This document shows positions 1 through 31,129 of a stretch of DNA of 33,475 bases, piece by piece. The notes below the pieces were generated by a model that saw nothing but the letters and a program-made list of their open reading frames with translations, did not search any database and was not told where the DNA came from. How positions within the stretch are numbered: the stretch's first letter is position 1; each line of letters starts with the position of its first letter. Origin of the DNA: a virus. The position numbers were made by a program, and so were the translations under genes. The stretch covers positions 1 to 33,475 of the IMG/VR virus record IMGVR_UViG_3300028490_000018. The stretch is one strand, 5' to 3'.

Positions 1-10
1 ACCCCTCCAG

Positions 11-411
11 TTAATCCATCTTAATCCATCTTAATACATCTTAATACATCTTAATACATCTTAATCCATCTTAATCCATCTTAATCCATCTTATCCATTG
101 AATACCATCTTAATACATCTTATCCATTGAATACCATCTTAATACATCTTAATACATCTTAATCCATCTTAATACATCTTATCCATTGAATACCATCTTA
201 ATACATCTTATCCATTGAATACCATCTTAATACATCTTAATACATCTTAATACATCTTAATCCATCTTAATACATCTTATCCATTGAATACCATCTTAAT
301 ACATCTTATCCATTGAATACCATCTTAATACATCTTATCCATTGAATACCATCTTAATACATCTTATCCATTGAATACCATCTTAATACATCTTATCCAT
401 TGAATACCATC
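11..411. repeat. Two-unit tandem repeat array (10-bp and 19-bp units)
   Basis: The stretch can be parsed without gaps into 23 copies of a 10-bp unit (TTAATACATC, variant TTAATCCATC) and 9 copies of a 19-bp unit (TTATCCATTGAATACCATC). The 19-bp unit looks like a 9-bp plus a 10-bp degenerate copy of the short unit, so the array keeps a period close to one helical turn. Short units are clustered on the left; on the right 10- and 19-bp units alternate as 29-bp repeats. Stops occur in the units on both strands, so it is not coding. There are no unique spacers, so it is not CRISPR. Candidate roles are a protein-binding array such as a partition site, replication origin or packaging site, or simple expansion by slippage. 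Confidence 0.95.
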
Positions 412-757
412 TTAATCATTCTAAGATAAAAAAGTATATTTTAAAATAAGACTGTAGAATAAAAAGTCACTCGAGTTGTTGATGTTGGGATAAAAATATA
501 ATTTAATAAAAGATAATTTATAAAGTTTTATAGATTAATCTGTAACCATTTAATGTTAATATAAAAATATAATTTGATTAAATAAATATACTTTTTTATA
601 GTTATAAATATATAATTTAATTTAATAAATGATGTGTTTTATAGTGAAATCACCTCATCGTTAGCCCTTGTTTAAATCGCTTGTATATTAAGTTAAATTA
701 TATTTTTAATGTTCTTGACCTTCTAAGTTATAAAATAAGTTAAAATACGGGATGTTT

Positions 758-786
758 GAGGTTATATAGGGGTATGCCTCTTTTTT
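758..786 (+). terminator. Rho-independent terminator-like hairpin
   Basis: AGGGG (768-772), loop TATG, CCTCT (777-781) forms a tight stem with one G:U pair. An alternative outer stem is GAGGT with GCCTC. Six T residues follow directly (781-786). It would stop rightward transcripts entering from the repeat side before the capsid operon promoter. Confidence 0.6.
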
Positions 787-791
787 ATACA

Positions 792-816
792 ATACCGCCC
801 CTAAAAATGGGGGTAT
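792..816. other. Stable hairpin upstream of the capsid promoter
   Basis: ATACCGCCCC and GGGGGTAT pair around the loop TAAAAAT, as four plus four base pairs with a two-base bulge. It is one of the few GC-rich spots in the region. There is no T-run after it on the + strand, so an operator or RNA structure is as likely as a terminator. Confidence 0.45.
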
Positions 817-849
817 TTACAGATTACAGAAATACCTAAATACAACTAT

Positions 850-910
850 CAAAATAAAAAAAACAAAAAAAACCGAGAATATTGACAAAAAGTAAAAAAA
901 TATATATAAT
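850..910 (+). promoter_or_regulatory. Consensus sigma70-type promoter with A-tract upstream element
   Basis: TTGACA (882-887) and TATAAT (905-910) both match consensus exactly and are separated by exactly 17 bp. A-tracts at about 850-873 lie where an UP element would be. The promoter ends about 25 bases before the scaffold-like gene at 935 and should drive the head operon strongly. Confidence 0.85.
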
Positions 911-934
911 TAAAGAAAAAGAGGTATAAATTAT

Positions 935-1660
935 ATGTTTGATAAACTAAAAGAGTTATTAGGGGACAATACAGAGGCAATAAGTGAATTATCTTCAATA
1001 AGTGATAATTATAGTAAATTAATTGAGAGAGCAGACAAGGCTGATAATTTAGTAAGTAATTTAAAGGAAGAGAAAAGTAAAATGAAATCTTTTATAGCAG
1101 CTACTAAGACAGCATTAAATATTGAGGAAGGTGAAGAATTATCATCAGAAACAGTAAATAGTAAATTTGATACTATTAAAACTAAATTAAAATCAACAGG
1201 AAGCAAGAAAGAACAAGACTTAATGGACCAGATAGCTAATTATGAAAAAGTTGTATCAACATTAAAGAGTGAGAAGGAGGAAGTAATTACAACATCCAAA
1301 GCAAATGAACTTGATAGATTGTTAGAGATAGAGTTATTAAATTCAACACAAGGGATAGATACACATAATGATGATTCAGCAAAAGTAATAAGGGATTTAT
1401 TAAAGAGTGGGTTATCATATGAGGACGGTTCAAGTGTATATAGAAATAACGAGGGTTCAATAGTAAAAGGGGCAGATGGGATAACAAACAAGAGTTTATC
1501 AGATACATTAGATGAGTTAAAGGACAATGAGAGGTATTCATATTTATTCAAAAGTAAGAAGACACCAGGGACTGGGACAGAGACAGCAGACAATGGAAAA
1601 GGTGATATTGAGGACGATTCAATTGAGGCAAGAATGGCAAGAAGAGCAGCGGCGAAATAG
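935..1660 (+). CDS. Scaffolding-like protein
   Basis: The 241-aa product is acidic and highly charged, with a long predicted helical, coiled-coil-like N-terminal half (about residues 1-135) and a disordered tail rich in Gly, Thr, Asp and Glu that ends in a basic ARMARRAAAK-type segment. That layout, together with its place directly before the major capsid gene, is typical of phage scaffolding proteins that guide procapsid assembly and bind coat through a basic C-terminus. The ATG at 935 follows AAAGAGGT with good spacing and sits just downstream of a consensus promoter. No protease domain is seen. The call rests on composition and gene order, not on catalytic motifs. Confidence 0.65.
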   Translation: MFDKLKELLGDNTEAISELSSISDNYSKLIERADKADNLVSNLKEEKSKMKSFIAATKTALNIEEGEELSSETVNSKFDTIKTKLKSTGSKKEQDLMDQIANYEKVVSTLKSEKEEVITTSKANELDRLLEIELLNSTQGIDTHNDDSAKVIRDLLKSGLSYEDGSSVYRNNEGSIVKGADGITNKSLSDTLDELKDNERYSYLFKSKKTPGTGTETADNGKGDIEDDSIEARMARRAAAK

Positions 1661-1884: not shown

Positions 1885-2877
1885 ATGGGAACAAATCAAG
1901 CAGACATAAGATTAGTAGAGTTGTATACAATGGAAGATTATATGAAAGACCTTTCAGAGAACACATTACTAAAATCAGGACTTGTTAAGACAAGTAAGAC
2001 AATTAAAGAGAAAATTAACGCGGCAGACTTTGGACTATCATTAAGATTACCATACATTCCATCACAAGCATTTGATGAAGGTGAGATTGTAGATGATTCA
2101 ACAAATGAGATTCAAGGAACAGGGATTGTATTTGGACATATGACAGCAGCATTAAATAACAGAGCTAAGGCATGGGATTTTGCTAATATCACTGAGCAAG
2201 TTAAACCAGGACTTAAATTAACAGATATCGTTGTTAGAGAAGGTCAAAGATGGCACAACAAAATGTTAGAGAAGATTCTTGAGGCATCATTAGATGGTGT
2301 AATAGCGTCAAACATTGCTAACGAGGGTGGAGACATTGTTTTAGATAATGGAACAGATGCTATCGATTGGAGTACAATTGTAAAAGCAAGAAATTTAGCA
2401 CATAAGCAAACGTTTAATCACATTGTAATGGGAATTGATGTAGCATCAGTATTAGAAGTTAAATACCCTGAGTTATATATGAGAAAAGACAAAGTTTTAG
2501 GATATGGAATGGATACATTCGGTGGAATGAAAGTTATTATATCTGATACATTAGGAGCAGAGGCAGATGCTAAGAAGACAGTTTATTTACTATCTGATGG
2601 AGCAATAATTCAAGATTTCAAAGACATTGATGGAACAATAGGTTCAGCAGGACCATTTAAATTAGTTGAGAACAAAGCAGCTGGTATGGGTGGAGGAAAT
2701 AAGAAGTTTATTTTCAATATGGCAGAAGTTACACATGTAGATGGATATTCTTATTCAGTAGCACCTACAAAGACAAATGGTTATACATTGGCAGAGTTGG
2801 CAAACCCAGCACTATATACAAGAGTAGCACCACAAGAGAACACAGGAATCGTAGCTATAAAAACAGAAGCTAAGTAA
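1885..2877 (+). CDS. Major capsid protein
   Basis: The 330-aa product forms the capsid shell. It looks like a full-length HK97-fold coat protein: an N-terminal arm, then a P-domain/E-loop-like stretch (about residues 50-120, with conserved-looking GTGIVFGHMTAA and RAKAWDF segments), then a mixed alpha/beta core with DIVVREGQRWHNKM and a GTIGSAGPF turn. It follows the scaffold-like gene, precedes connector genes, and is flanked by its own leader and a double hairpin, as expected for the most abundant virion protein. The ATG at 1885 has AAAGAGG upstream. The fold is inferred from sequence character and gene order. Confidence 0.85.
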   Translation: MGTNQADIRLVELYTMEDYMKDLSENTLLKSGLVKTSKTIKEKINAADFGLSLRLPYIPSQAFDEGEIVDDSTNEIQGTGIVFGHMTAALNNRAKAWDFANITEQVKPGLKLTDIVVREGQRWHNKMLEKILEASLDGVIASNIANEGGDIVLDNGTDAIDWSTIVKARNLAHKQTFNHIVMGIDVASVLEVKYPELYMRKDKVLGYGMDTFGGMKVIISDTLGAEADAKKTVYLLSDGAIIQDFKDIDGTIGSAGPFKLVENKAAGMGGGNKKFIFNMAEVTHVDGYSYSVAPTKTNGYTLAELANPALYTRVAPQENTGIVAIKTEAK

Positions 2878-15856: not shown

Positions 15857-16495
15857 ATGACTGAACAAGAAATGATAAATGCTTTTGAAGCACATTCTAA
15901 TGAAATTACAGCTTTACTTGAAGGAAGTGATGCTACAACTATTAATGGCAAAGATTCAGTAAGAAAAATAGTAAAAAGATTTATAAATACATTGGCAAGA
16001 AATTGGAGTATATCAAGAAGATATGTTGTAGGAGATGTAGTTACTTATAATACTAATTTATATCTATGTAAGTCTTGCCATCATGGAATAAATCCAGCTA
16101 TTGAACCTGACACATGGCTTCAAGTTAATGCTAATGAAAACTTAGGTGAATCAGGATTTTCAAAAAAATGTTGTGTAAGAGAAGGTAAAATTATATCTGG
16201 TAATGATTTTTTCTCTTCATATACTGTAAGAGTTAATAGTGATTCAAATCAATTAAAATTTGTATTCAAAAGGGCAGCAGCTAATGACAACTATATTATA
16301 ATTCCAACTTATGTTAATAAAGATACATATGCTGTTTTTGATTTAGGTGTTCCAGATGAAAAGAAGAATAGGTATGGATTTACATTATTATCAAGAAACA
16401 ATGCTTCATTGGATTCACACTCAGACGCTGGAACGTCGACTATTGAACAAAGTCATGAACCTTATGAAATAAATATAGCAATAAAGGAGGTTTAA
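15857..16495 (+). CDS. Fibre-array protein 1 (helix, CBM-like motif, beta head)
   Basis: The 212-aa product has three parts seen again in its neighbours: an alpha-helical N-terminus (about 1-50), a carbohydrate-binding-module 5/12-like motif (about 54-92: RRYVVGDVVTYNTNLYLCKS ... PAIEPDTWLQVN, matching Y..GD.V.Y...LY.C......P....W..V), and a beta-rich C-terminal head (about 100-212). This layout suits small tail fibres or receptor-binding proteins: helix for trimer or docking, module for sugar binding, head for recognition. The next gene begins two bases after its stop. Family placement rests on motif pattern only. Confidence 0.65.
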   Translation: MTEQEMINAFEAHSNEITALLEGSDATTINGKDSVRKIVKRFINTLARNWSISRRYVVGDVVTYNTNLYLCKSCHHGINPAIEPDTWLQVNANENLGESGFSKKCCVREGKIISGNDFFSSYTVRVNSDSNQLKFVFKRAAANDNYIIIPTYVNKDTYAVFDLGVPDEKKNRYGFTLLSRNNASLDSHSDAGTSTIEQSHEPYEINIAIKEV

Positions 16496-16496
16496 T

Positions 16497-17225
16497 ATGA
16501 ATTTAAATTCAGTAAGTAATTTATATAAAGATACAATAGATAATTATTCAGAAGTTGTATTCAATACAAATGGTGGTGTTGGATTACCAGCTTCTATGGA
16601 GACTATTGATAAATTAACAAAAGCACAAGAAGACCATATCGGTGGGTTATGGAATCCAGCAAAATCATATTCATCAGGAGACTTAGTATCTTCTGATAAT
16701 ACAACATTATATATATCATTAATTAATGGTAATACATCGACATTAGATAATGAATCATCTTGGAAAGTAGTTAGAGAAAACTATTTTGCCGATGGTGAAA
16801 TTAATATTGTTGCCTCAGCTTATATTTCATATAGGTCAGTTGATGAAATGGATGGTGGTAATGGGGTGGGTATCTTATCTCATAATATTGAAGCTGAAGG
16901 GATTACGAGAGTTAGATATATAAATAGAGGAACAGTTGATGGTAACGGAAACCCAGTCAAGGATAAAGAAATATCAACAATGGACCTTAGGGTTATATTA
17001 AAGGCAGGAGCAAATATAGAAGATGATAAGTATACTGTTCTTGTTAGTTGTCCAAAGTTAAAAGCGTCATCAGGTGGTATGGCATACTCGGCATATACAA
17101 GAGTTTTTGACAAAACTAAAACAGGATTTACAATAAGTGCTTCAAGAGATAGGATAGGTAGTGAAGAGTGGTTGCCAGGGTGGTCGAGTGCCTATGCTAT
17201 CATAAGTGTAGTAATAATAAAATAA
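16497..17225 (+). CDS. Fibre-array protein 2 (helix, CBM-like motif, beta head)
   Basis: The 242-aa product repeats the plan of its left neighbour: N-terminal helical segment, a CBM-like motif (about 50-90: WNPAKSYSSGDLVSSDNTTLYIS ... ESSWKVV), and a beta-rich head (about 95-242) with GILSHNIEAEGITRVRYIN and YTVLVSCPKLKASSGGM. The head shows no close similarity to that of its neighbours, which suggests different ligands. AGGAGG precedes the start at close spacing. A role in host surface recognition is inferred from position and architecture. Confidence 0.65.
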   Translation: MNLNSVSNLYKDTIDNYSEVVFNTNGGVGLPASMETIDKLTKAQEDHIGGLWNPAKSYSSGDLVSSDNTTLYISLINGNTSTLDNESSWKVVRENYFADGEINIVASAYISYRSVDEMDGGNGVGILSHNIEAEGITRVRYINRGTVDGNGNPVKDKEISTMDLRVILKAGANIEDDKYTVLVSCPKLKASSGGMAYSAYTRVFDKTKTGFTISASRDRIGSEEWLPGWSSAYAIISVVIIK

Positions 17226-17235
17226 GGAGGGTGTT

Positions 17236-17937
17236 ATGGGAAGTTTTAAAGAATGTGATATAAGATTAAAAGGTAAGTTAGAATTAATAACTAAGGCTTT
17301 TAATAATACAATGTGTAATACTGAGACAGATATAAACGGTAATAAAATATTTGGATTTGAGCAGGATATAGTTAAATCTATTCCTCAAAATGGGTCTACT
17401 TTTAAAGATAATACAATTTATGTAAAAGGAGACATCATTAGTTTTAAAGGGGCAGTTTATGTAGCAAAAACATCCAGTCAAGGTCAGAAACCTTATGATA
17501 AATTTTATTTTAGAGAAGTTAATCCTGATTTAAAATATTTAGGTGTTGGATTTAATATAAGAGCATATATATCAAGTAAAGTATCTAATACACCTTATGT
17601 TAATGCTAATGGAGATGTTGTTAATAACATGGTTAAAGTTGTTAAATATGGAAATTCAAAAGGTGTTGAAGATGATGGATATTCTTTGGCACCCAGACCA
17701 TTAGATGCTAAATTCTCTATTGATTTTTTCATGGATGGAAATAATTTACCTACATTTATAAATTTCATGGAACCATCAATGATTAGAAATAATGTAAATG
17801 GAAATCAAGAACTTATTTTCCCACATGTTAATTCAGTCCTTCAAGGTGATTCAAAGTGGGCATTACAAGCTGGGGGAACATTTGAGACAGATAAACATTA
17901 TGCTTTTAATGCTATCGCTATTCAAATGAATACATAA
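17236..17937 (+). CDS. Fibre-array protein 3 (helix, CBM-like motif, beta head)
   Basis: The 233-aa product has a helical N-terminus (about 1-50), a CBM-like motif (about 55-95: DNTIYVKGDIISFKGAVYVAK ... KFYFREV), and a beta-rich head with NIRAYISSKVSN and KFSIDFFMDGNNLPTFINF. AAGGAGGG lies just upstream of ATG 17236. It keeps the order of parts seen in the two preceding genes but little sequence identity outside the motif. This points to an old duplication followed by diversification of the head. Confidence 0.6.
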   Translation: MGSFKECDIRLKGKLELITKAFNNTMCNTETDINGNKIFGFEQDIVKSIPQNGSTFKDNTIYVKGDIISFKGAVYVAKTSSQGQKPYDKFYFREVNPDLKYLGVGFNIRAYISSKVSNTPYVNANGDVVNNMVKVVKYGNSKGVEDDGYSLAPRPLDAKFSIDFFMDGNNLPTFINFMEPSMIRNNVNGNQELIFPHVNSVLQGDSKWALQAGGTFETDKHYAFNAIAIQMNT

Positions 17938-17939
17938 TT

Positions 17940-18566
17940 ATGAATATAAGTAACTCTTTCAAAGAACTGAAAAAACATGGAGATGTTTTAATATCAGTTA
18001 TAACAGGTGACAAGAACTTTATAGATATTAATGGAAACAAATCAATAAGAAATATAGTTTACAATACATTAAAAAATGCTTCATCACAATATAAAGATGG
18101 GATAGGTGAAATATATACAAGTAAACTTGGAGCTGCTCAGGAATTAGACCATGAACAGTCAAGAAGAGCTTTTCATAGTATAAATATTAATTTAGAAGAT
18201 AATAAAACTAAAAGAATGAATACAAGGGTTACATATAATGGACCTTATTTAAAAACAGCAAGAATAGTTAGTTTAGATGATACTATACTTGATTATACAA
18301 TGTCTAAATATTTTAATGTAGATTCAGAGAATATAACAAAATGGGATTTAGTTAATTATAATATAACAGAAACTAAAACAGGTTCATTTTTCTGGATATA
18401 TATGCCAAATACTATATCAGAAATAAAAAATTATGGGGTCTTAAATGTTCCTTATTATCAAACAACAGATGAAAGAAGAGGAATACCATTTAGATTACAT
18501 AAAGAGAGTTTTATAGATGCTGATGGGAATACAGTAGATATGTATCTTAAAATAAGGGAGGGTTAA
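17940..18566 (+). CDS. Fibre-array protein 4 (divergent)
   Basis: The 208-aa product has the helical N-terminus of the array, including an INGNKSIRNIVYNTLKNASS segment comparable to INGKDSVRKIVKRFINTLAR of the first array protein. In place of a clear CBM-like motif there is DGIGEIYTSKLGAAQELDHEQ. The C-terminal part is beta-rich (MNTRVTYNGPYLKTARIVSL..., SFFWIYMPNTISEIKNYGVL). It starts only two bases after the upstream stop. It is the member with the weakest middle motif. Confidence 0.55.
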   Translation: MNISNSFKELKKHGDVLISVITGDKNFIDINGNKSIRNIVYNTLKNASSQYKDGIGEIYTSKLGAAQELDHEQSRRAFHSININLEDNKTKRMNTRVTYNGPYLKTARIVSLDDTILDYTMSKYFNVDSENITKWDLVNYNITETKTGSFFWIYMPNTISEIKNYGVLNVPYYQTTDERRGIPFRLHKESFIDADGNTVDMYLKIREG

Positions 18567-18567
18567 T

Positions 18568-19182
18568 ATGACATTAGCAAAAATACAAGCAATAGTGACA
18601 GGTTATGCTGGGAAAGCACAAAAGTTTCTTGATGTTTTAAGTAATTCATCAACTATATATGATAACATTAGTGAAATTGAAGCAGAAATGATAAATAGTC
18701 AAGGAAGATATTTAGATGAAAATGCTACAAAAACACCTGGTGATATATATACAATAGCAGAAAAAGATTATAATGAAGGTGTAAATAGTTTTATATATAT
18801 AGATAATGAAATAGGTAATTTAACTATATTTGATGAAGTTATATTTAGAGAGCAAGATGAGGCAAATATTATATTATCAGGATATTATAGAAGGGAGACA
18901 CCTTTATTAATTGAGAATGGATTAACGATAACTAAGGTTGGAGCTGATGATAAGTTTAATATTGTTTTTAATGTTACTGAATTAGACCCATTATTTACTT
19001 TCTTTATAATTCCAGTTTACAAGGAACAAACATATACTCCAGATGGTCCACCTATTGTAAGAGTTATTAAATCTATAAGTAATGTTAGTATGGATGGATT
19101 TACAGTTGAATTTAAGCAAGGGGATAACCTATCAATAGATATGGTTGAAAATTTTAAAGTATTAATAATGAGAGGTAATTAA
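18568..19182 (+). CDS. Fibre-array protein 5
   Basis: The 204-aa product starts two bases after the previous stop with an AGGGAGGG-like ribosome-binding site overlapping that gene. An N-terminal helical segment (about 1-50) is followed by a degenerate CBM-like stretch (about 57-95: KTPGDIYTIAEKDYNEG ... FDEVIFREQ) and a beta-rich head with RRETPLLIENGLTITKVGADDKF and LFTFFIIPVYKEQTYTPDGPP. Same plan as its neighbours, with a different head. Function in adsorption is inferred from context. Confidence 0.55.
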   Translation: MTLAKIQAIVTGYAGKAQKFLDVLSNSSTIYDNISEIEAEMINSQGRYLDENATKTPGDIYTIAEKDYNEGVNSFIYIDNEIGNLTIFDEVIFREQDEANIILSGYYRRETPLLIENGLTITKVGADDKFNIVFNVTELDPLFTFFIIPVYKEQTYTPDGPPIVRVIKSISNVSMDGFTVEFKQGDNLSIDMVENFKVLIMRGN

Positions 19183-19184
19183 AA

Positions 19185-19646
19185 ATGAATTGTCAAACAA
19201 TATATGAGAAAATAATATTTCTATTAAATCATTTCTATTATAGAGGGTTTTTAGATAATTTATGGGGATATGAAGAGAAAGTAAAATCAGCATTAAATAA
19301 TGAGTATAAGATACCTTATTCATCAACAAGAACATATCAAGAGGGTGATTTATGTTCATTTGAAGCTAATTTATATATATGTCATACTGTAAGCACTAAT
19401 GTAGACCCAGATAATGGGAATTTTAGATTAATAAATAATGAGAACTATTCTATTCAATGTAAGTTAACAAAGGGGTATTTTAGATATTCAGATAATCTTC
19501 AAGTAAATTTAGCTGAAATACCAGAGGATGACTTAATTATAGAAAATAGATTTGTAAGAGGTAATATAAATGGTATTGATAAATCAAGAATATATATAGT
19601 TTATTATTATACAGGTTCAGGAGACAATGCTATCTTAATATCTTAA
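19185..19646 (+). CDS. Fibre-array protein 6 (short head)
   Basis: The 153-aa product has a helical N-terminus (IYEKIIFLLNHFYYRGFLDN), a well-kept CBM-like motif (about 45-82: STRTYQEGDLCSFEANLYIC ... DPDNGNFRLIN) and a short beta head (about 85-153). The head is much shorter than in members 1-5, making it an intermediate between those and the headless members to its right. It ends before a gap that carries a new promoter. Confidence 0.6.
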   Translation: MNCQTIYEKIIFLLNHFYYRGFLDNLWGYEEKVKSALNNEYKIPYSSTRTYQEGDLCSFEANLYICHTVSTNVDPDNGNFRLINNENYSIQCKLTKGYFRYSDNLQVNLAEIPEDDLIIENRFVRGNINGIDKSRIYIVYYYTGSGDNAILIS

Positions 19647-19666
19647 TTTACATTTATTTATAAAGA

Positions 19667-19675
19667 TGCTATAAT
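19667..19675 (+). promoter_or_regulatory. Extended -10 promoter inside the fibre array
   Basis: TGCTATAAT matches the extended -10 pattern and lies 25 bases before the ATG at 19701, with AAAGGTGA between. It would drive the three headless array genes and the adhesin. Confidence 0.55.
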
Positions 19676-19700
19676 AATATTATAAATAAAGGTGATATAA

Positions 19701-19961
19701 ATGACTTATGATGAAGCAAATGCTAAATTAGTATTATTAACAGATGAATTAACTGATTTATTATCAGGAATTGATTCAGCTGACAAATTATCAACAGAAT
19801 CTATATGTAATCTATATGCTCAGGAATCAAGTAGTTATAATCCAAATGTAATATATGTAAGAGGAACACTTGTTTTTGTAGTTGATAAATATTATAGATG
19901 TAGGGAAGAAAATAAAAATATAGCAGTAACAGATACTAATTATTGGAAGGTGATGAAATGA
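19701..19961 (+). CDS. Fibre-array protein 7 (headless)
   Basis: This 86-aa protein keeps the N-terminal helix (DEANAKLVLLTDELTDLLSG) and a CBM-like motif (about 48-86: NPNVIYVRGTLVFVVDKYYRC ... DTNYWKVMK), and stops right after it. It therefore lacks a beta head. Its stop overlaps the next start (ATGA). A short adaptor or a small sugar-binding subunit of the tail is likely; either is inference. Confidence 0.6.
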   Translation: MTYDEANAKLVLLTDELTDLLSGIDSADKLSTESICNLYAQESSSYNPNVIYVRGTLVFVVDKYYRCREENKNIAVTDTNYWKVMK

Positions 19962-20239
19962 CTTTAACAGAACTAACAACAACATATAACTCATATAAAG
20001 AACTTGTAGCAAGAATAAGAGAAGTTTTAACTAACGAAGGAGTAACGACTTTGCCTCCTGAAATGAAAAAGATAATTGAATTAACTAATAAAAGACATAC
20101 ATTTAAGAAATGGGAGTCAGGAATAACATATTTAGATAATGATATAATTTCATTTAATTTAGATATGTATAGATGTTTAGCATCAAATACTGGGATAGAC
20201 CCAACAGACACTACAAAATGGGTGAAAGTAAATGTATGA
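19958..20239 (+). CDS. Fibre-array protein 8 (headless)
   Basis: The ATG at 19958 overlaps the previous stop and has GGAAGGTGA upstream, so it is preferred over an in-frame TTG at 19943. The 93-aa product has a helical N-terminus with VLTNEGVTTLPPEMKKIIELTN and a clean CBM-like motif (about 55-92: ESGITYLDNDIISFNLDMYRC ... DPTDTTKWVKVNV) at its very end. As in member 7 there is no head. The next gene begins inside its 3' end. Confidence 0.6.
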   Translation: MTLTELTTTYNSYKELVARIREVLTNEGVTTLPPEMKKIIELTNKRHTFKKWESGITYLDNDIISFNLDMYRCLASNTGIDPTDTTKWVKVNV

Positions 20240-20564
20240 TGTAGAATTACAAAAAAGATTTAATGATTATGTAGATAGAATTACAAAAGAAGTAAATCAA
20301 AATCAAGAACAATCAACAGATTTAGAATATGGATTAACATTATATGGATATGAATCAACAATTATTAATTGGGCTAAGGATGAAAGCTTTAATTTTAACA
20401 TAGATAAAATTTATGATGAAGGTGATATTGTATGGTATGAATATAAATATTTTGTAGATGATGATGGATATATTGAGGAATCATACTTTGTATGTAAATT
20501 AGATTTAACGGTAGGTAAAAAACCTACTGATGATACATTTTTTAAGAGGTTAACATTATCATGA
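20232..20564 (+). CDS. Fibre-array protein 9 (headless)
   Basis: This 110-aa protein has an N-terminal helix (DVELQKRFNDYVDRITKEVN), a middle segment LEYGLTLYGYEST, and a CBM-like motif (about 60-110: DKIYDEGDIVWYEYKYFV ... KPTDDTFFKRLTLS) carrying an acidic insertion (DDDGYIEES). It overlaps the preceding gene and the adhesin gene (ATGA), so it is likely translated together with the adhesin. It may connect that adhesin to the tail. Confidence 0.6.
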   Translation: MYDVELQKRFNDYVDRITKEVNQNQEQSTDLEYGLTLYGYESTIINWAKDESFNFNIDKIYDEGDIVWYEYKYFVDDDGYIEESYFVCKLDLTVGKKPTDDTFFKRLTLS

Positions 20565-22255
20565 ATACATTAAAGAGAAACAGTAATGCTATGTTTTTAT
20601 ACAACAGTAAAGAAACATTAGCAGAAGCAGCATATTTTATAACATCTTGGGAAACAGATGCTTCAAATAAGGTATATATACCTGTAAACTCAGCATATAC
20701 ATACGATTATAGTATAGATTGGGGAGATGGTAACAAGGAACAAATAACTGTAAATACTAATCCTGAACATGAATATGTGAATTCTGGAATATATGACATT
20801 AAGATATATGGACAATTCCCTCATTTTTATATAAATAGTAATTCAACAATAGGTTCAAAATTAAGAGATGTAAAACAATGGGGATATATTAAATGGGAGA
20901 GTTTTCACAGAAGCTTCATGGGTTCTTTTTCAACGGAGACATTAGTTTCTGTTATTGATAGTCCTGATTTAAGTTTAGTTACTGATTTTCAATTTGCTTT
21001 TTATGGTATGAAAGCAAATTTTACAAGTATAAATTGGGATATTCCAATAGCTACAAGTTTAAGTTCTTTATTTCAATCATGTTCAAATTTAAATTGTGAT
21101 ATTACTATTAATGCTCCATTAGTTGAAGATTGTTCAAATATGTTTTCAGGTAATTATTATAGTGAAGGTTTAATAACTGTAAATACAACAAGTGCTTTGA
21201 CAAACGTTTCAAATATGTTTTATTATCATACAAAGAGAACAGTGTTACCAGTTGTTTCAAATATGAGTAATGTAACGAATTCAAAATACTTCATGAAAAA
21301 TAACTTTAAATTTAATAGTTCAATTAATGATTTAGTTGATGTAATGGGGTTAAAAACTCTTGAAGGAATATTATTGGGATGTAAAGAATTTAATCAACCG
21401 ATTTCATTTACATCTAATATTGTGACAAATATGAAAGAAATGCTACATACTTGTAAGAAATTTAATAGTCAAATAACTGCTGATACAAGTAATGTTGTTA
21501 ATATGGCATCATTATTTAGGGAATGTATAATATTTAATCAAGAGATAATTATGGATACAAGTAGTGTTACTGATATGTCAAATATGTTTAATAGAACTTC
21601 TGTTTTTAATAATGGAGGACAACCTTTCTCATTTAATACAAGTAATGTAAGTGATTTTGAAGGTATGCTTACTTATTCATCTGAGTTTAATCAAGACATA
21701 TCTAATTTAGATTTCTCAAAAGCTACAAATATAGAGCAGTTCTTACAAGGTTCTGCTTCATATAATAATGCTGGACTTCCTATTACAATGAACTTAGATA
21801 TAATCTACGGTGGATATAGTGGAACTGTCCAAGCATTTTCTGGTTGTAATTCTCTAAATCAAACAATAACATTGACAGGTTGTAATAACTTAAATGGACT
21901 ACCTCACTTTGTAGCAGGATGTGCTATATTTAATAGTCAAATTAATATAGAAAATACAAGCAAGATATATAATATGTCATATATGTTCTATAACACAACA
22001 GCATTTAATCAAGATATTAGTTCTTGGGGTTGGGACTACAGTAAAGTAATATATTATAGTTCAATATTATCAGGAACAGCACTTGATACAACTAATTATT
22101 CTAAATTATTGATTGAACTTGATGCTCAAACAGTTAAACCTAATATATCATTTAGACCTGGAAATACATTAACTTATAATTCAACTGCTGAAGTAGCAAG
22201 ACAAAGCTTAATAGATAATGATTCTTGGACAATTACAGATGGAGGGTTAGTATAG
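20561..22255 (+). CDS. PKD plus BspA-like (DUF285) adhesin 1
   Basis: The 564-aa product begins with a PKD-like domain (about 20-95: YFITSWETDASNK, DYSIDWGDGNKE, HEYVNSGIYDIKIYG) and continues as a DUF285/BspA-type leucine-rich solenoid (about 115-520) with repeats such as FNQEIIMDTSSVTDMSNMF. It ends in a capping segment with FRPGNTLTYNSTAEVARQ and TDGG. BspA-like repeats mediate surface binding, so this is probably the tip adhesin. It is coupled to fibre-array protein 9. The last 95 bases of homologous sequence (22151-22245) are identical to those of a second adhesin gene at 27883-29604. No signal peptide is present, consistent with a virion protein. Confidence 0.85.
   Translation: MNTLKRNSNAMFLYNSKETLAEAAYFITSWETDASNKVYIPVNSAYTYDYSIDWGDGNKEQITVNTNPEHEYVNSGIYDIKIYGQFPHFYINSNSTIGSKLRDVKQWGYIKWESFHRSFMGSFSTETLVSVIDSPDLSLVTDFQFAFYGMKANFTSINWDIPIATSLSSLFQSCSNLNCDITINAPLVEDCSNMFSGNYYSEGLITVNTTSALTNVSNMFYYHTKRTVLPVVSNMSNVTNSKYFMKNNFKFNSSINDLVDVMGLKTLEGILLGCKEFNQPISFTSNIVTNMKEMLHTCKKFNSQITADTSNVVNMASLFRECIIFNQEIIMDTSSVTDMSNMFNRTSVFNNGGQPFSFNTSNVSDFEGMLTYSSEFNQDISNLDFSKATNIEQFLQGSASYNNAGLPITMNLDIIYGGYSGTVQAFSGCNSLNQTITLTGCNNLNGLPHFVAGCAIFNSQINIENTSKIYNMSYMFYNTTAFNQDISSWGWDYSKVIYYSSILSGTALDTTNYSKLLIELDAQTVKPNISFRPGNTLTYNSTAEVARQSLIDNDSWTITDGGLV
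22151..22245 (+). repeat. 95-bp exact direct repeat, copy 1
   Basis: This segment of adhesin 1, encoding its C-terminal cap, is base-for-base identical to 29500-29594 in adhesin 2, including synonymous positions. The genes differ on both sides. Both copies point the same way. Confidence 0.95.
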
Positions 22256-22257
22256 AG

Positions 22258-22290
22258 ACAACCTATTTAGGTTGTTCTACTTTTACTTTA
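22258..22290 (+). terminator. Terminator at the end of the rightward structural region
   Basis: ACAACCT (22258-22264), loop ATTT, AGGTTGT (22269-22275) is a perfect 7-bp stem. T-rich sequence (TCTACTTTTACTTTATCTTT) follows on the + strand. The stem overlaps the last codons of the convergent portal gene; the - strand side lacks a T-run, so it acts mainly on the rightward operon. Confidence 0.65.
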
Positions 22291-23603
22291 TCTTTATTTG
22301 AAGGATTTAAATATTCTTGTTGTTCTTTAAGTTGTGTTTTAGCTTGATTATAATCAAAATCAGGAATAATTTCTCCATCAATTAATGTATCCCAAAAGAT
22401 ATCTAAAGGTAATGAATTATTATCTATCATAGTATTTAAAGCAAATATTGTTTGAGAATCTAATTTAGTATCATTAAAATCTTTATTTAATGTAAGTTTA
22501 AAATCAATTGACTCACCATAAAATTCTTCTGCTATTGAAATACATTGTTCAATACCTTTTTCAATATTTATAGCTATATCAACTAATAATAAGTTTGAAT
22601 TCTTATCATGAAGATTTGCTTCTGTTGCTGTATTAAATGTTTTGTTCATAATTGAACTTGTTTTCTTAACAATTTCTTCTTTAATATCTTTTAAAACATT
22701 TCTTGAAGTTTCAATAGTTGAACCTTTTGCTTCTACAATTTCTAATCCTTCTTCTTGTTTATTTCCAAAAGATAAAGCTTTATTTACACCTACTTTAACA
22801 TTATTGTCTTTTCCCATTTCTTGTTCAAGACCATGAAATACATACATAGGTGTATTAGTCATATGTAAGTTATATCTTAAATCAGAATAAATATTATAGT
22901 GGTCTAAGTTTAAGTCTGCTAAATCCTCATAAGGCATATTATGACCTGATTTGATTTTTATTAATGGCATTACTCCAATGTTTAATACATCCTCCTTTAC
23001 TTTTTCGCCATTACTATCAAAGAATTTAATTCTTTCAGCAGTTATATCAATATATATTTCTTCTTCTTTTGTTTCATATTCACTTCCAATTACATCAACT
23101 GTAATAACTTGTTTGATTACAGCTTGAACAAGAGTTTTAACTCCATTTATTTTTTTATATTTAGGATTTATTACATTTATTCTATCTATTTGAGTAAAGT
23201 ATGGATTCCAGTTTACATCAGTAATATCACTACCAGCATCAACCCATACAAATGTATGCCCATCTCTTTGAACTTTATCAGATACATTCATAAGAAATTG
23301 ATAAATGTTATCTCCTTCTCCATTTATATTATTTATAAATTTATCATATTTTACTTTATAATCTACAATAGGCTTAATTCTAAATAATTTAGATGTAGAA
23401 TCATCAAGAGCTTCTTTTAGATAGTTATAAAATGAACTTCTGTTTAATCTTTGTTCAAATTTATCATCTTCTTCAAGGGCATGCTTGTCTAAATACTTAG
23501 ACCCTTGTTTTTTTACACTGTCATTACCAGCATATAATTCACTCATTTTTATTAATTTAGCATGGTTCTCTTTATATTCTGGTGTTTGAAATTTTATTGA
23601 CAT
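22263..23603 (-). CDS. Portal protein (DUF4055-like)
   Basis: The 446-aa product resembles DUF4055 portal proteins: an N-terminal YLDKHALEEDD ... FEQRLNRSSFYNYLKEALDDSTSKLFRI segment, the FLMNVSDKVQRDGHTFVWVDAG region, a beta-rich clip, and MPLIKIKSGHNMPYEDLADLNLDHYNIYSDLRYNLHMTN-type stem helix sequence. Portals form the dodecameric DNA gate. It lies just downstream of the large terminase but in its own transcription unit, with an extended -10 promoter and AAAGAGG. Being on the - strand and 20 kb from the capsid gene is unusual, since the portal is normally just upstream of scaffold and capsid. Confidence 0.8.
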   Translation of the reverse strand: MSIKFQTPEYKENHAKLIKMSELYAGNDSVKKQGSKYLDKHALEEDDKFEQRLNRSSFYNYLKEALDDSTSKLFRIKPIVDYKVKYDKFINNINGEGDNIYQFLMNVSDKVQRDGHTFVWVDAGSDITDVNWNPYFTQIDRINVINPKYKKINGVKTLVQAVIKQVITVDVIGSEYETKEEEIYIDITAERIKFFDSNGEKVKEDVLNIGVMPLIKIKSGHNMPYEDLADLNLDHYNIYSDLRYNLHMTNTPMYVFHGLEQEMGKDNNVKVGVNKALSFGNKQEEGLEIVEAKGSTIETSRNVLKDIKEEIVKKTSSIMNKTFNTATEANLHDKNSNLLLVDIAINIEKGIEQCISIAEEFYGESIDFKLTLNKDFNDTKLDSQTIFALNTMIDNNSLPLDIFWDTLIDGEIIPDFDYNQAKTQLKEQQEYLNPSNKDKVKVEQPK

Positions 23604-23629
23604 ATCTATTTAACCTCTTTTATTATTTT

Positions 23630-23638
23630 ATTATATCA
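23630..23638 (-). promoter_or_regulatory. Extended -10 promoter for the portal gene
   Basis: On the - strand TGATATAAT lies 26 bases before the portal ATG, between it and the large terminase stop. Confidence 0.55.
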
Positions 23639-23642
23639 TTTT

Positions 23643-25061
23643 TTAAGTAGGAATATCAACCTGAGTAAATTCCTTCTTCTTGATTGGGAATAAAAAATAA
23701 ACTAAATAACCTAAAGCATCTAACATATGGTCTTGACCTGATTCTTTATCAGGCTCACCTTTCTTATTATATACTTGTTGATTTAAATTGCTTATTAAAT
23801 TTTCACATTTGTCATCTATTGCTATTCTGTTCTGATTGAACATAGCATTTACAGATAATACTCTATCCTTTACACGAGGATTCTTTAATTTTGCTTTTAC
23901 TATAAATCTTGCTTTTCTTAATAGTATTATATCAGATATAGAGGCATCAGACGACTTTGTATTTTTACCTGAAGCATCTGGATATATAAATATATTTCCA
24001 CCTATATCTTTTTTCATAATTTCTTCAATCATAGCTGGGGTATCATCAACTCCATATATTTCATCAATTATTTCTATTTTACCATTTCTTATATGAGTTA
24101 TTACAGCTGACATCTTTCCAACGTTAAAGTCCATTCCTATATGAACATCTTCAAAAGTGTATTCTAATCCTTTACTTAAATGTCTCTTCATATCAAATGA
24201 ATCATATACAACATGACCTTCCAAGTTCATAAATTCACCTGCCATATAAGCATTTAACTTATCTGCTGGATATATCAATCTTAATGAATCAAAATATGAT
24301 TGTTTTAAATATATATTATCTTCTGTATGACCTTTGATTGGGATATATTTTTCTAAATATTGTTTATCCTCAGCACTTAGTTTTTCTTTCTTTTTAATGT
24401 CTCTAATGTTCTTTTCCCAGAATTCCCACATAAATCTAAATCCTTCTGGTGTAGTTGTGACTGAAATACTGTTTTCTCCTGATGTAGTAAGTCTATTTCT
24501 TTCAATTATCTTTCTCCACACTTCTTTTGCTTTGTCCCCTGGTAAAGTATCTAATTCATCAATCCAACATCCACCATGTTGATATCCAACAATTTTAGAT
24601 GGGTCTGACATATTAATAAATTTAATTGTTCCTAATTTTGGAAACTTAATTGTTCTATTTGATTTATTTAAAACATATTGATATCCTAAATCTTGAATAA
24701 TGGCTTCAAATCTTTCATAAAGAACAGTCTCAATTAAATCATATGTAGGTTCATATACTCCAAACATATATATTCTTCCTTGTTTTTTTAGTTCAGGTCC
24801 ATATTTTAACATATGTTTCATTGTTCTTATAATACCTGCTTCTGTTTTCCCACATCCAAATCCACCTATCAAGGCAGGAAATGTTGCTTCACTATTTACA
24901 AACTCATCTTGATGTTTAAATAACTTTATATCCATCTTTTTAATTTTTTCTTTTGAAGAAACATCGGTATCATCATATAAAATATCATTAAAATAGTCAT
25001 TATCTACACTAAAATCATCAAACATGTCATCATCTAATGTGTTCCAATCAAAATCACTCAT
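23643..25061 (-). CDS. terL: Terminase large subunit
   Basis: The 472-aa product has an ATPase domain with Walker A GGFGCGKT (residues 66-73) and Walker B with catalytic glutamate in CWIDELD (Asp168, Glu169). The coupling motif lies near SVTTTPEGF. The C-terminal RuvC-like nuclease is marked by HIGMDFNVGKMSAVI, IYPDASGKNTKSSD and GQDHMLDALGYL with the expected acidic residues. It packages DNA into the head through the portal. Its ATG overlaps the small subunit stop (TAATG) behind GGAGG. The acidic first 35 residues are an N-terminal extension beyond the usual core. Confidence 0.95.
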   Translation of the reverse strand: MSDFDWNTLDDDMFDDFSVDNDYFNDILYDDTDVSSKEKIKKMDIKLFKHQDEFVNSEATFPALIGGFGCGKTEAGIIRTMKHMLKYGPELKKQGRIYMFGVYEPTYDLIETVLYERFEAIIQDLGYQYVLNKSNRTIKFPKLGTIKFINMSDPSKIVGYQHGGCWIDELDTLPGDKAKEVWRKIIERNRLTTSGENSISVTTTPEGFRFMWEFWEKNIRDIKKKEKLSAEDKQYLEKYIPIKGHTEDNIYLKQSYFDSLRLIYPADKLNAYMAGEFMNLEGHVVYDSFDMKRHLSKGLEYTFEDVHIGMDFNVGKMSAVITHIRNGKIEIIDEIYGVDDTPAMIEEIMKKDIGGNIFIYPDASGKNTKSSDASISDIILLRKARFIVKAKLKNPRVKDRVLSVNAMFNQNRIAIDDKCENLISNLNQQVYNKKGEPDKESGQDHMLDALGYLVYFLFPIKKKEFTQVDIPT

Positions 25062-25843
25062 TAAACATCCTCCTCTTTTTCTTTTTGATTATTTGTTAAT
25101 TTAATAAAGTCTCTATATTCATCAGCAGATAATACAATCTCTTCTTTACCATCTTTAGCATTAAGATTAATTAAATTTAATTCAGCTATCTCAGAACTTA
25201 ATGATTTATCTTCTTCTAATGATAATCCTCTACTAACACCTAATGTATCTAAAACTCTAAATACTGATTTTTCTTTTCCTTTGGCAATATTATTTCTTAA
25301 TGCTGTCATTGCTTCATCTACTATTGTGCTATCAATATTATTTAATTCTTCCTTAAATACAGCATTGTCTCTTTTCCAAGTTCTATATGTAATCATCTTT
25401 ATACCTGATTTCTTTAATGCAGCATTTACATTTCCTGGATTATTTAATAATGTTGTTAAGAAAACAATTTGTCTCTCACTTAATATTTTATCTTTATAGT
25501 CTAAATAATAAGGTGAATTTCTTAAAAATCTTTGTTTTCTTTGATATTGATTATATAACTGTTTTTGTCTTTCTTCTTCTCGTTCAGTTAGTTTAGCTGT
25601 CATCTCATCAGTATTTCTTCTACCTTTAACTATAACTTCAAATCCTGAATTCTTAGCTAATTCTCTAATTATAGATAACTGGTCTTTTTGATAATCATTA
25701 AAATCTAATTCTATCTCCTTACCTTTATTTTCCTCATATTTCTCTTTATTTAACCTAATATCATTCTTTCTTTTCTTAACTTGTTCAGTTTTATGAACCT
25801 TTTCTTTAGTTTTTCTAACTACTGGAACCCCTTTTGGCATCAT
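25061..25843 (-). CDS. terS: Terminase small subunit (phBC6A51-type HTH)
   Basis: The 260-aa product has a basic N-terminal segment and a long charged coiled-coil-like region (about 20-110), followed by a helix-turn-helix domain (about 115-180: LSERQIVFLTTLLNNPGNVNAALKKSG..., MITYRTWKRDNAVF) like that of small terminases of the phBC6A51 type. It should recognise the packaging start and regulate the large subunit, whose gene follows with overlap. Two ATGs are adjacent; AAAGGAGGT is better spaced for the second (at 25840), so the first Met may be absent. It is longer than most family members because of the N-terminal region. Confidence 0.75.
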   Translation of the reverse strand: MMPKGVPVVRKTKEKVHKTEQVKKRKNDIRLNKEKYEENKGKEIELDFNDYQKDQLSIIRELAKNSGFEVIVKGRRNTDEMTAKLTEREEERQKQLYNQYQRKQRFLRNSPYYLDYKDKILSERQIVFLTTLLNNPGNVNAALKKSGIKMITYRTWKRDNAVFKEELNNIDSTIVDEAMTALRNNIAKGKEKSVFRVLDTLGVSRGLSLEEDKSLSSEIAELNLINLNAKDGKEEIVLSADEYRDFIKLTNNQKEKEEDV

Positions 25844-27882: not shown

Positions 27883-29604
27883 ATGAAAAAACTTAACCTT
27901 AAAAATAGAAATATGATGTCTATGTTTCTATTACAAAAAAAGAAGAAAGAAATGAGTGGTGGTGAGTCTGAACCTGCTATTCCTGAAACATCTCATTTTA
28001 TAACAACTTGGGATACTAATAATAAAGTTATAACTATTCCTACAAAATCTGGATTAACTTATGATTATAGAGTAGATTGGGGTGATGGAGCAATAGATAA
28101 TAATGTAAATGGTGATGCTACACATACATATGCTGATAATGGTTCTTTTGATGTTAAGATATCAGGAACATTCCCTCAAATATATATAAATGGAAATAAT
28201 AGTTGTAAAAAATATATTACAGAAATAAAACAGTGGGGAAATATTAAATGGGAATCTTTTAGTAGAAGTTTTATGTATTGTAGTAACCTTACAAGTCTTC
28301 CAACTATTGATTCACCTGACCTAAGTTTAGTTTTAAATTTTGAGTATGCCTTTTATCAATGTAATATATTAAAAGGTGGTAATTTGATATGGGATATGCC
28401 AGAGGCTACTAATATGTATTATATGTTCAGTGGTTGTAAAAAACTGGATGAGAATGTAATTACATTTAATGCTCCAGAAGCTGTTGATATTTCAAATATG
28501 TTTAGCAATTGTTATACTAATAATGCTGATATAACTTTATATACTACAAGTAAATTGAAAAAAGTAAGATGGTTCTTGTCTGACAATAAAATAAATACTA
28601 AATTGCCAACTATATCAAATATGAGTTCTGTATTTGTTGCTTCTGGAATGCTTGTTAGGAACTTAAAATTCAACAAGTCAATAAATGATTTAATTGATGT
28701 TATGGGACTAAGAAAAGTAGATGGTCTTCTTATTGGCTGTAAAATATTTAATCAACCTATTGACTTTACAACAAAATTATCAGGTAATTTAACCTCTCTT
28801 TTGGAAGGATGTTCAAAGTTCAACAATATTATATCTATTGACACATCAGATATAACGAGGATGGATAATATGTTTGCTCAATGTAGTTCATTTGATAAAG
28901 AAATTACATTTGATACAAGTAATGTAACTAACATGAATGCTATGTTTATTAGAGCATTAAGCTTCAATAACGGAGGACAACCTCTTTCATTTAATACAAG
29001 TAAAGTTACTGATATGAAATATATGTTTTTGGGAGCAAGTAAATTTAATCAAGATATATCTAACTTAGATTTTTCTAAATGTTTAAATACTGAAAGGATG
29101 TTTTATCATTGTTCTGTATTTGATAATAATGGAGCTACTATTAATATGAATTTTGATGTTATGGCTTCTCATACAAATTATACTTTTGCTTATTGTTCTG
29201 AATTAAATCAAGATATAAATATTACAGGTTGTTCTAAATTAGGTTCATTGACTTACTTTGTATCTGATGCTAATAAATTCAATAGTAAAATAACAGTTGA
29301 AATTCCAAATAAGATTACTAACCTATCATTTACTTTTAGTAAATCAAAAGTGTTTAATCAAGATGTAGGTTCTTGGGATTGGGATTACAGTAAAGTAATA
29401 TACTATGATAATATGTTTGATGGAACAGCAATGGATACTGATAATTATTCTAAATTCTTGATTGAACTTGATGCTAAAACAGTTAAGTCAGGTATTAACT
29501 TTAGACCTGGAAATACATTAACTTATAATTCAACTGCTGAAGTAGCAAGACAAAGCTTAATAGATAATGATTCTTGGACAATTACAGATGGAGGATTAGC
29601 TTAA
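27883..29604 (+). CDS. PKD plus BspA-like (DUF285) adhesin 2
   Basis: The 573-aa product is a paralogue of the adhesin at 20561-22255, with the same plan: PKD-like domain (about 35-105: HFITTWDTNNK, DYRVDWGDGA, HTYADNGSFDVKISG), DUF285 repeats (about 120-530, e.g. FDKEITFDTSNVTNMNAMF) and an identical C-terminal cap. Its first 35 residues are lysine-rich and differ. It stands alone with its own promoter between the endolysin and the TnpB region, away from the tail genes, which makes it look like a moron-type or duplicated cargo gene. It may be an alternative adhesin or a surface protein; no signal peptide is visible. Confidence 0.8.
   Translation: MKKLNLKNRNMMSMFLLQKKKKEMSGGESEPAIPETSHFITTWDTNNKVITIPTKSGLTYDYRVDWGDGAIDNNVNGDATHTYADNGSFDVKISGTFPQIYINGNNSCKKYITEIKQWGNIKWESFSRSFMYCSNLTSLPTIDSPDLSLVLNFEYAFYQCNILKGGNLIWDMPEATNMYYMFSGCKKLDENVITFNAPEAVDISNMFSNCYTNNADITLYTTSKLKKVRWFLSDNKINTKLPTISNMSSVFVASGMLVRNLKFNKSINDLIDVMGLRKVDGLLIGCKIFNQPIDFTTKLSGNLTSLLEGCSKFNNIISIDTSDITRMDNMFAQCSSFDKEITFDTSNVTNMNAMFIRALSFNNGGQPLSFNTSKVTDMKYMFLGASKFNQDISNLDFSKCLNTERMFYHCSVFDNNGATINMNFDVMASHTNYTFAYCSELNQDINITGCSKLGSLTYFVSDANKFNSKITVEIPNKITNLSFTFSKSKVFNQDVGSWDWDYSKVIYYDNMFDGTAMDTDNYSKFLIELDAKTVKSGINFRPGNTLTYNSTAEVARQSLIDNDSWTITDGGLA
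29500..29594 (+). repeat. 95-bp exact direct repeat, copy 2
   Basis: It is identical to 22151-22245. It begins right after a diverged stretch and ends eight bases before the stop codon of adhesin 2. Confidence 0.95.
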
Positions 29605-29616
29605 ATATTCTTAGAA

Positions 29617-29676
29617 GTGCTATCAAAAGTTAAAAATGAACTTATCAAAATACAAAACGGAGTCTTTTGATAGCAC
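29617..29676. repeat. 13-bp perfect inverted repeat
   Basis: GTGCTATCAAAAG (29617-29629) and CTTTTGATAGCAC (29664-29676) flank a 34-base loop. It lies 13 bases after the adhesin 2 stop. There is no T-run on either side. It could be an element end, an RNA stability structure or an atypical terminator. Confidence 0.8.
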
Positions 29677-29689
29677 ATATAAAAATACT

Positions 29690-29793
29690 TGGCTACCGAG
29701 TTTAGGGATTGAACCTAAAAATCTTACTAATTAATTGCTCATAAGATAATAGTCTTTTAATTACATATAAAAATATGTAAAACTACCTCAGTA
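29690..29793 (-). other. tRNA-like cloverleaf ending in CCA
   Basis: On the - strand the segment starts TACTGAG (29793-29787), which pairs over 7 bases (one G:U) with CTCGGTA (29700-29694), followed by G and CCA. The arm before it is a perfect T-arm, TTAGG TTCAATC CCTAA, with the canonical T-loop. Two further hairpins (8 bp at 29761-29780; 6 bp with a 15-base loop at 29721-29747) occupy the D- and anticodon-arm places. It is not an ordinary tRNA: 104 bases, T-stem plus acceptor of 13 bp, no normal anticodon loop and no GG in the D-loop. It may be a decayed tRNA, an attachment-site fragment or part of the TnpB guide RNA. Confidence 0.45.
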
Positions 29794-29965
29794 TAAATTA
29801 ACACAAGGGCTTATAACCCAAGGTTTGAAATTGGAAGATACGATGATTTGTAAGATGTATCAGTCTTTTAATTACTCTTTAAAGTAAGTTATGGTTGTTT
29901 ATCTATCAAACATAAACATAGTATAGCAGAATTTTGAGATTCTGTTTAAAACTTGGAATAAGAAT

Positions 29966-31129
29966 TTATCTTTTTATCACAATTGGATGTAATAATACAT
30001 TATCCCTATTCTTTATCTTTATATCAATTAACTTAACCATAATCTGAGCAGCACCATTTATATCTGAATTTAATTCTATTCCACTTTCAGTTCTAAACAA
30101 TCCTCTTTTAACTCTCTTTCCTTTATATCTACTTTGTTTCTCTGGAAGTTCTAAATCTAAGAATGATGTTTTAGATGTATAACTCTCATCATCAAATATC
30201 GTCTTTATTCCAAATTTTAATCCCATATCTCTTATCTTTCTTCTTATTTTTGAATGTGGAATATAAAAGAAATGTCTGGCTACCTTATTTTCTTTAATAT
30301 CTTTAAAAAATCCAACTGCTATTTCATTCACTCCATTATGACGAGCTACTTTGAATATATAATTAATATATCTGTTTATCTCTTGTTCTATTTGTCTTTC
30401 TCTTTTTAAATTTATCTTATCATTATCAACTCCATCATTAGACATTCTCTTTAACATATGATGATTAATATTCTTTATCTTTCTTCCTGATATCAAAACA
30501 GGTTTAATGTCTTTCTTCTCATTATACATATACATAGCAAATAACTGATTCATACCTAAATCTATACTCATTTTAGTCCCTTTATTGATTAGTTTCTCAG
30601 ATTCTGGCTTGTAGGTGTAAACTATCATATATTTACCTTGTTTCTCTTGTAATCTTATTTGAGTAGTTGAACCACTATATTTAAAATTCTTTGGAATAGG
30701 TATATCTAAAAATGATTTACAATTATATTTCTTTTGAAAATCTTGTCCAAGATATAATGATAGACTTCCATTGTTTTTAAAATTAACCATGTTTCCAAAA
30801 AAAGCTATGAAAAAATCTTTTTGTCTCCAATTAGGTCTTCTTAAATTGCCTTCACCTTTTTTATTTTTGAAATAGTTTTTGAAATTAATATCTAAGTTTC
30901 TTATTATTGAAGTTGACATCATATTTCCTAATAACTTATAATTCTTTGTATGCTTTAATTCATCACATACAATATTCCATGTTGGATATCTTTCATATGT
31001 ATCATTGTAGTAATTGATGAAATATAAAGCTTGATTGTATAACTTAGCAGATAGTCTAAAAAGGTTATTTAAAACTCTCTCATCGACTGTCTTTAAGTTC
31101 TGGACAAAGTATCCGTTATTTACTTTCAC
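29966..31129 (-). CDS. tnpB: TnpB-like RNA-guided nuclease (IS200/IS605 OrfB family)
   Basis: The 387-aa product has an N-terminal helical region, a wedge-like part, and a RuvC fold with Asp190 in MSIDLGMNQ and Asp356 in LNSDINGAAQI. The usual RuvC-II glutamate position holds Gly273 (IAVGFFKDIK); Glu315 in FDDESYTSKTSFLD is the likely replacement, as in the sub-family with RNQxF..IPH and dEsYTSK..SFLD motifs. The Cys4 zinc finger is absent (only two cysteines in total, Cys55 and Cys137). It starts with GTG overlapping a tiny upstream reading frame and is last in an operon of small genes; no TnpA gene is nearby. Either an active nuclease or a domesticated protein is possible. Confidence 0.85.
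   Translation of the reverse strand: MKVNNGYFVQNLKTVDERVLNNLFRLSAKLYNQALYFINYYNDTYERYPTWNIVCDELKHTKNYKLLGNMMSTSIIRNLDINFKNYFKNKKGEGNLRRPNWRQKDFFIAFFGNMVNFKNNGSLSLYLGQDFQKKYNCKSFLDIPIPKNFKYSGSTTQIRLQEKQGKYMIVYTYKPESEKLINKGTKMSIDLGMNQLFAMYMYNEKKDIKPVLISGRKIKNINHHMLKRMSNDGVDNDKINLKRERQIEQEINRYINYIFKVARHNGVNEIAVGFFKDIKENKVARHFFYIPHSKIRRKIRDMGLKFGIKTIFDDESYTSKTSFLDLELPEKQSRYKGKRVKRGLFRTESGIELNSDINGAAQIMVKLIDIKIKNRDNVLLHPIVIKR

Follow-up and report, generated by a model that had tools for sequence, protein, structure and literature searches.

Iteron origins and ParR-bound centromeres are both built on repeats of 10 to 20 bp (PMC9426499, PMC5016525, PMC7145576). The repeats bound by ParR measure 10, 11, 17 or 20 bp (PMC9426499), and the origin of a phage satellite provides a precedent for iterons located in a non-coding region that holds several repeat types (PMC7145576). 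Here we describe an array of at least 32 head-to-tail short repeats in metagenomic phage DNA, a 33,475-base virus record of 28% GC (the whole of this stretch was analysed and is hereafter referred to as the window). The unit lengths of the array fall within the range of known ParR-bound repeats. As in ParR/parC-type sites, tandem short direct repeats are gathered at one non-coding locus, and as in iteron origins, direct repeats lie beside an AT-rich region. Host DnaA boxes, another element of iteron origins, were not found: no TTWTNCACA is present on either strand of the window, and the nearest DnaA-like site in the array (TTATCCATT, within the nineteen-base unit) matches TTATCCACA at 7/9 positions. 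Not every phage origin needs DnaA boxes. We tentatively interpret the array as an iteron-type direct-repeat site for protein binding, of the origin or partition type, that may have been enlarged by tandem duplication; we rate this interpretation a little below an even chance, and a neutral minisatellite is nearly as likely.

Structure and setting of the array

The array parses without gap or mismatch into 23 ten-base and 9 nineteen-base units that together span 401 bases, confirming to the base the tiling reported in the first-pass annotation (Table 1). The ten-base units have the core TTAAT(A/C)CATC and occur in two forms, TTAATCCATC (seven copies, termed c) and TTAATACATC (16 copies, termed a), which differ at a single polymorphic position and display no decay across 401 bp. 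The nineteen-base unit (L; TTATCCATTGAATACCATC) is present in nine copies, with no further variant inside the array. L can be aligned to a fused c+a pair if small indels and a single substitution are allowed, in support of the earlier proposal that it is a degenerate fusion of two short units. Read from 11 to 411, the unit order is ccaaacccLaLaacaLaLaaacaLaLaLaLaL. An independent TRF call placed the array at 11–417 with a period of 10 (41.6 copies, score 432), and a second call had a period of 98 (score 486). Beyond the array, the window contains one c unit (on the reverse strand), two a units and no L; the array is far beyond chance expectation.

No reading frame is open across the array, which is thus non-coding. 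The units have no dyad. As single-stranded DNA, the plus strand of the array forms no hairpin, and the hairpins of the minus strand are weak and no better than those of shuffled sequences. A-tracts of three or more bases are absent from the array, so no A-tract bending would be expected.

The array lies within the largest non-coding stretch of the window (1–934); the second largest (361 bp) is located beside a tnpB-like gene. In the adjoining AT-rich segment, an element resembling TATAAAAATATAATTTAAT is present in three diverged direct copies (at 479, 550 and 593) and one inverted copy (686–708). These copies span 479–708, with the array on one side and a promoter on the other. The promoter is one of two exact consensus matches in the window and is predicted from its sequence to serve the scaffold/capsid operon. 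The earlier description of two non-randomly ordered, non-coding unit types ahead of the capsid operon is upheld. The terminator that had also been placed there is weak, with one terminator-like site found where 0.5 would be expected by chance.

Table 1. Features of the array and of the region leading into the capsid operon
Feature	Position	Strand	Evidence
Tandem array, 23 ten-base and 9 nineteen-base units	11..411		exact parse, TRF
Left block: eight short units only (ccaaaccc)	11..90		exact parse
Middle block: LaLaaca then LaLaaaca, 88/98-bp higher-order duplication	91..276		
Perfect 29-bp period run (aL composite), 155 bp	262..416		
AT-rich segment, 19% GC (8% at 560–645), adjoining the array	412..760		
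Weak terminator-like stem with a T run after it	768..781	+	
Consensus sigma-70-type promoter, TTGACA-17-TATAAT	882..910	+	12/12 matches
Scaffold-like protein gene, first in the capsid operon	935..1660	+	phrog_206 E=5e-7
Major capsid protein gene	1885..2877	+	phrog_247 E=1e-23

Unit order, duplication and relatives

The alternation LaL occurs six times, a number reached in 0/5000 shuffles of the unit order. The ten-base period had been thought to place each unit on the same face of the helix. This holds, roughly, for the first eight units taken alone (vector strength 0.78 at 10.5 bp), but not across the entire array: at 10.5 bp, unit starts have a vector strength of R = 0.10 when all units are included and 0.11 when L units alone are considered, and shuffled orders match or exceed the observed phasing in 62% and 73% of cases, respectively. 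Each 10-base step lags a 10.5-bp turn by half a base, and every 19-base unit adds a further shift, so that any phasing is local at best.

Autocorrelation of the array peaks at 29, 98, 88 and 10. Since repeated duplication of the 29-bp composite yields alternation, strict alternation is no argument against slippage, and duplication of the 29-bp aL composite and of the 88/98-bp blocks reproduces the unit order. The argument that two unit types would not stay in phase under slippage is thus not sustained. The unit order can be brought down to an 8-unit core by undoing eleven exact tandem duplications, but shuffled orders perform about equally well, and the minimal duplication history of the array is not distinguishable from that of shuffled unit orders.

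The periodicity at 10, 29, 88 and 98 bp, the clustering of variants and the near-perfect identity of the units all fit turnover by slippage and, with the 8-unit core, speak for a neutral minisatellite, in which a short duplication arising by chance in a non-coding spacer would have grown through unequal recombination and slippage during replication and would not serve in binding. We regard this as a credible alternative, with a probability of about one in three. Were the array neutral, its neat alternation and ten-base period alone would imply neither helical phasing nor binding.

The array was found in no relative, which is also consistent with a neutral minisatellite. Searches of viral contigs with an array 33-mer and a degenerate 20-mer returned no match, array DNA had no relative in phage and plasmid collections, and no such array is present in distant phages with a shared terminase; this absence is only suggestive, because the virus's own record or near-identical genomes were possibly left out of the searches. 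One viral contig matched a 19-mer by coincidence, inside coding-like DNA and without a repeat. The nearest protein relative recovered in capsid, terminase and portal searches (L006; 28% GC, 4.45 kb) is remote (TerL 49% identity) and does not carry the array. Relatives of TerL in 80 genome contigs are mostly gammaproteobacterial with 41% identity or less, and the host is therefore not fixed.

Three observations speak against neutrality. In about 3.1 Mb of related loci, comparable non-coding arrays of short units, at least 200 bp long, were not detected by TRF, and the array is thus no background feature of this group of phages. Second, phages tend to rid themselves of spare DNA. Finally, the array occupies the sole large control region, adjoining other repeats.

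Proposed protein binding and its alternatives

In the protein-binding interpretation, the array would lie in a tailed phage's principal non-coding control region, where a phage-encoded DNA-binding protein would bind cooperatively to the ten-base cores along the DNA. A degenerate fused pair of this core would make up the 19-base unit, and the adjacent, very AT-rich segment might serve in melting or regulation. Tandem duplication of 10-, 29- and 88/98-base blocks, through slippage or unequal recombination, would have brought the array to its present size and alternating order. The binding protein itself would probably be an origin initiator or a partition adaptor, with its gene in the missing part of the genome.

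Several features argue for a binding array: two unit types with one polymorphic position and no decay, a position in the largest non-coding stretch, AT-rich repeats alongside, unit lengths within the known range, absence from related loci and, if the genome is circular, a place near a divergence point. Against it stand the lack of a recognised partner protein in the window, of any relative with the array and of a dyad, and the loss of phasing past eight units; perfect unit identity would also be expected of a young neutral minisatellite.

The window has genes for the capsid, tail, portal, terminase and lysis. Of the genes scanned, none was recognised as encoding a replication, integrase or partition protein, and an open reading frame is interrupted at the right end of the contig. 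Together, these observations make it probable that the contig is a fragment. Neither an initiator nor a ribbon-helix-helix protein was recognised in the window, nor was a parM/parR-type operon, the left flank and early region lying outside the contig. The partition or origin role suggested by the first-pass annotation is possible, but no partner gene was recognised in the fragment. All genes to the right of the array up to 22255 run rightward and most of those at the far right run leftward, which would place the array near a divergence point in a circular genome. Origins and control regions often sit at such points. The GC-skew pattern can be accounted for by gene-strand-linked skew with no need of an origin, which counts against the binding-array interpretation.

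The terminase and portal genes (22263–25843, minus strand) oppose the capsid/tail operon (935–22255, plus strand). In the relatives inspected (L170, Shewanella phage 3/49, L087 and L088), the scaffold gene comes after the portal and head-morphogenesis genes and shares their strand, whereas in the window the portal and terminase genes are on the strand opposite to the scaffold gene and 20 kb off, an apparent inversion judging from gene order; no head-morphogenesis gene was recognised in the window. The array thus sits where the ancestral gene order is broken, an observation to which we attach no mechanism.

Two DUF285 repeat proteins are encoded on the same strand, 5.6 kb apart (20561–22255 and 27883–29604), and share their C-terminal part, where 404 aligned bases are about 81% identical at the DNA level; their genes may be alternatives for a fibre or adhesin and capable of recombination. 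Nine small tail-end genes follow each other at 15857–20564, with weak CBM_5_12 carbohydrate-binding matches in two and a similar Y-x-x-G-D...C motif in four, and are possibly a tandem family of receptor-binding proteins. The TnpB-like gene (29605–31129, minus strand) has the 361-bp non-coding stretch as its flank, with a 13-base inverted repeat (GTGCTATCAAAAG/CTTTTGATAGCAC) at 29617 and 29664, a possible guide RNA and transposon-end region. Searches for RNA families and tRNAs found none.

A more specific form of the protein-binding interpretation, which we consider improbable, has one protein bridging the full and fused sites of an interleaved 10/19-base partition or origin array whose strength would depend on its rapidly changing number of units. 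If the array is functional in any of these ways, it marks the control or maintenance region of an orphan phage and offers a ready probe for its DNA-binding protein.

The composition of the array could also fit another role. With 98 C and 9 G in 401 bases, the plus strand is rich in C and almost devoid of G, and a rightward transcript of it, C-rich and unstructured, could load Rho and stop read-through into the capsid operon. C exceeds G by at least 15 in every 78-base window of the array, none of the top-ranking plus-strand C-over-G windows in the rightward-transcribed half lies outside it, its DNA is without secondary structure and a consensus promoter is located downstream. The rule used by RhoTermPredict calls for a C every 11–13 nt within 78 nt (PMC6407284). 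The array has the excess of C over G of a Rho utilisation site but not this cytosine spacing, and a scan approximating the rule missed it because its period is 10. A rut site, moreover, can be as short as about 80 nt and does not have to be built of tandem repeats. An insulator of this kind therefore seems unlikely.

Copy number could also reflect assembly. The longest exact repeat within the array is 126 bases and all its 127-mers are unique, which fits the limit of an assembly at k=127. Published JGI metagenome assemblies were made by metaSPAdes with k up to 127 (PMC7171226), and this contig may have been assembled in the same way. In a k=127 graph, longer 29-bp runs would shrink to 127–155 bases, and 155 are seen; the unit count is best taken as a lower bound, and the 29-bp run at the right end of the array may have been collapsed by the assembler and under-counted. 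However, a genuine 155-base run would look identical to a collapsed one, and the irregular left and middle blocks could not be produced by collapsing a uniform repeat. We give little credence to the view that the unit count and the tidy right-hand alternation of an otherwise real array were partly shaped by the assembler. Were the array neutral, it would caution that unit counts at the ends of short-read contigs are unreliable.

Packaging (pac or cos) and telomere-like readings, which place the array at or near a physical genome terminus, have little support and are very improbable: only ten bases of left flank separate the array from the contig end, but short-read contigs commonly end near repeats, nothing similar is present at the opposite end, which cuts an open reading frame, and pac sites are usually located at the terminase genes, which occupy 23.6–25.8 kb here, with terS and terL some 23–25 kb from the array, so that the packaging role first proposed gains no support.

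Comparison with known systems

The parC centromeres of R1, pB171 and pSK41 (type II partition, ParR-bound) are, like the array, non-coding tandem short direct repeats at one locus, and that of pB171 has the same 10-bp unit length. By contrast, parC sites contain far fewer repeats, and the array mixes two unit lengths; no parM or parR was recognised in the window, and no partition operon lies downstream of the array in the part seen. Iteron origins known from plasmids, phages and phage satellites (for example, the RepA-bound PLE origin) resemble the array in having direct repeats next to AT-rich DNA within a large non-coding region. The 19-base unit has the length of an iteron, whereas the 10-bp unit is short for one, and no initiator gene was recognised in the fragment. 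Bacterial and phage minisatellites (variable-number tandem repeats) have in common with the array head-to-tail units and duplication at several scales; the array differs from them in being limited to two unit types and a single polymorphic position.
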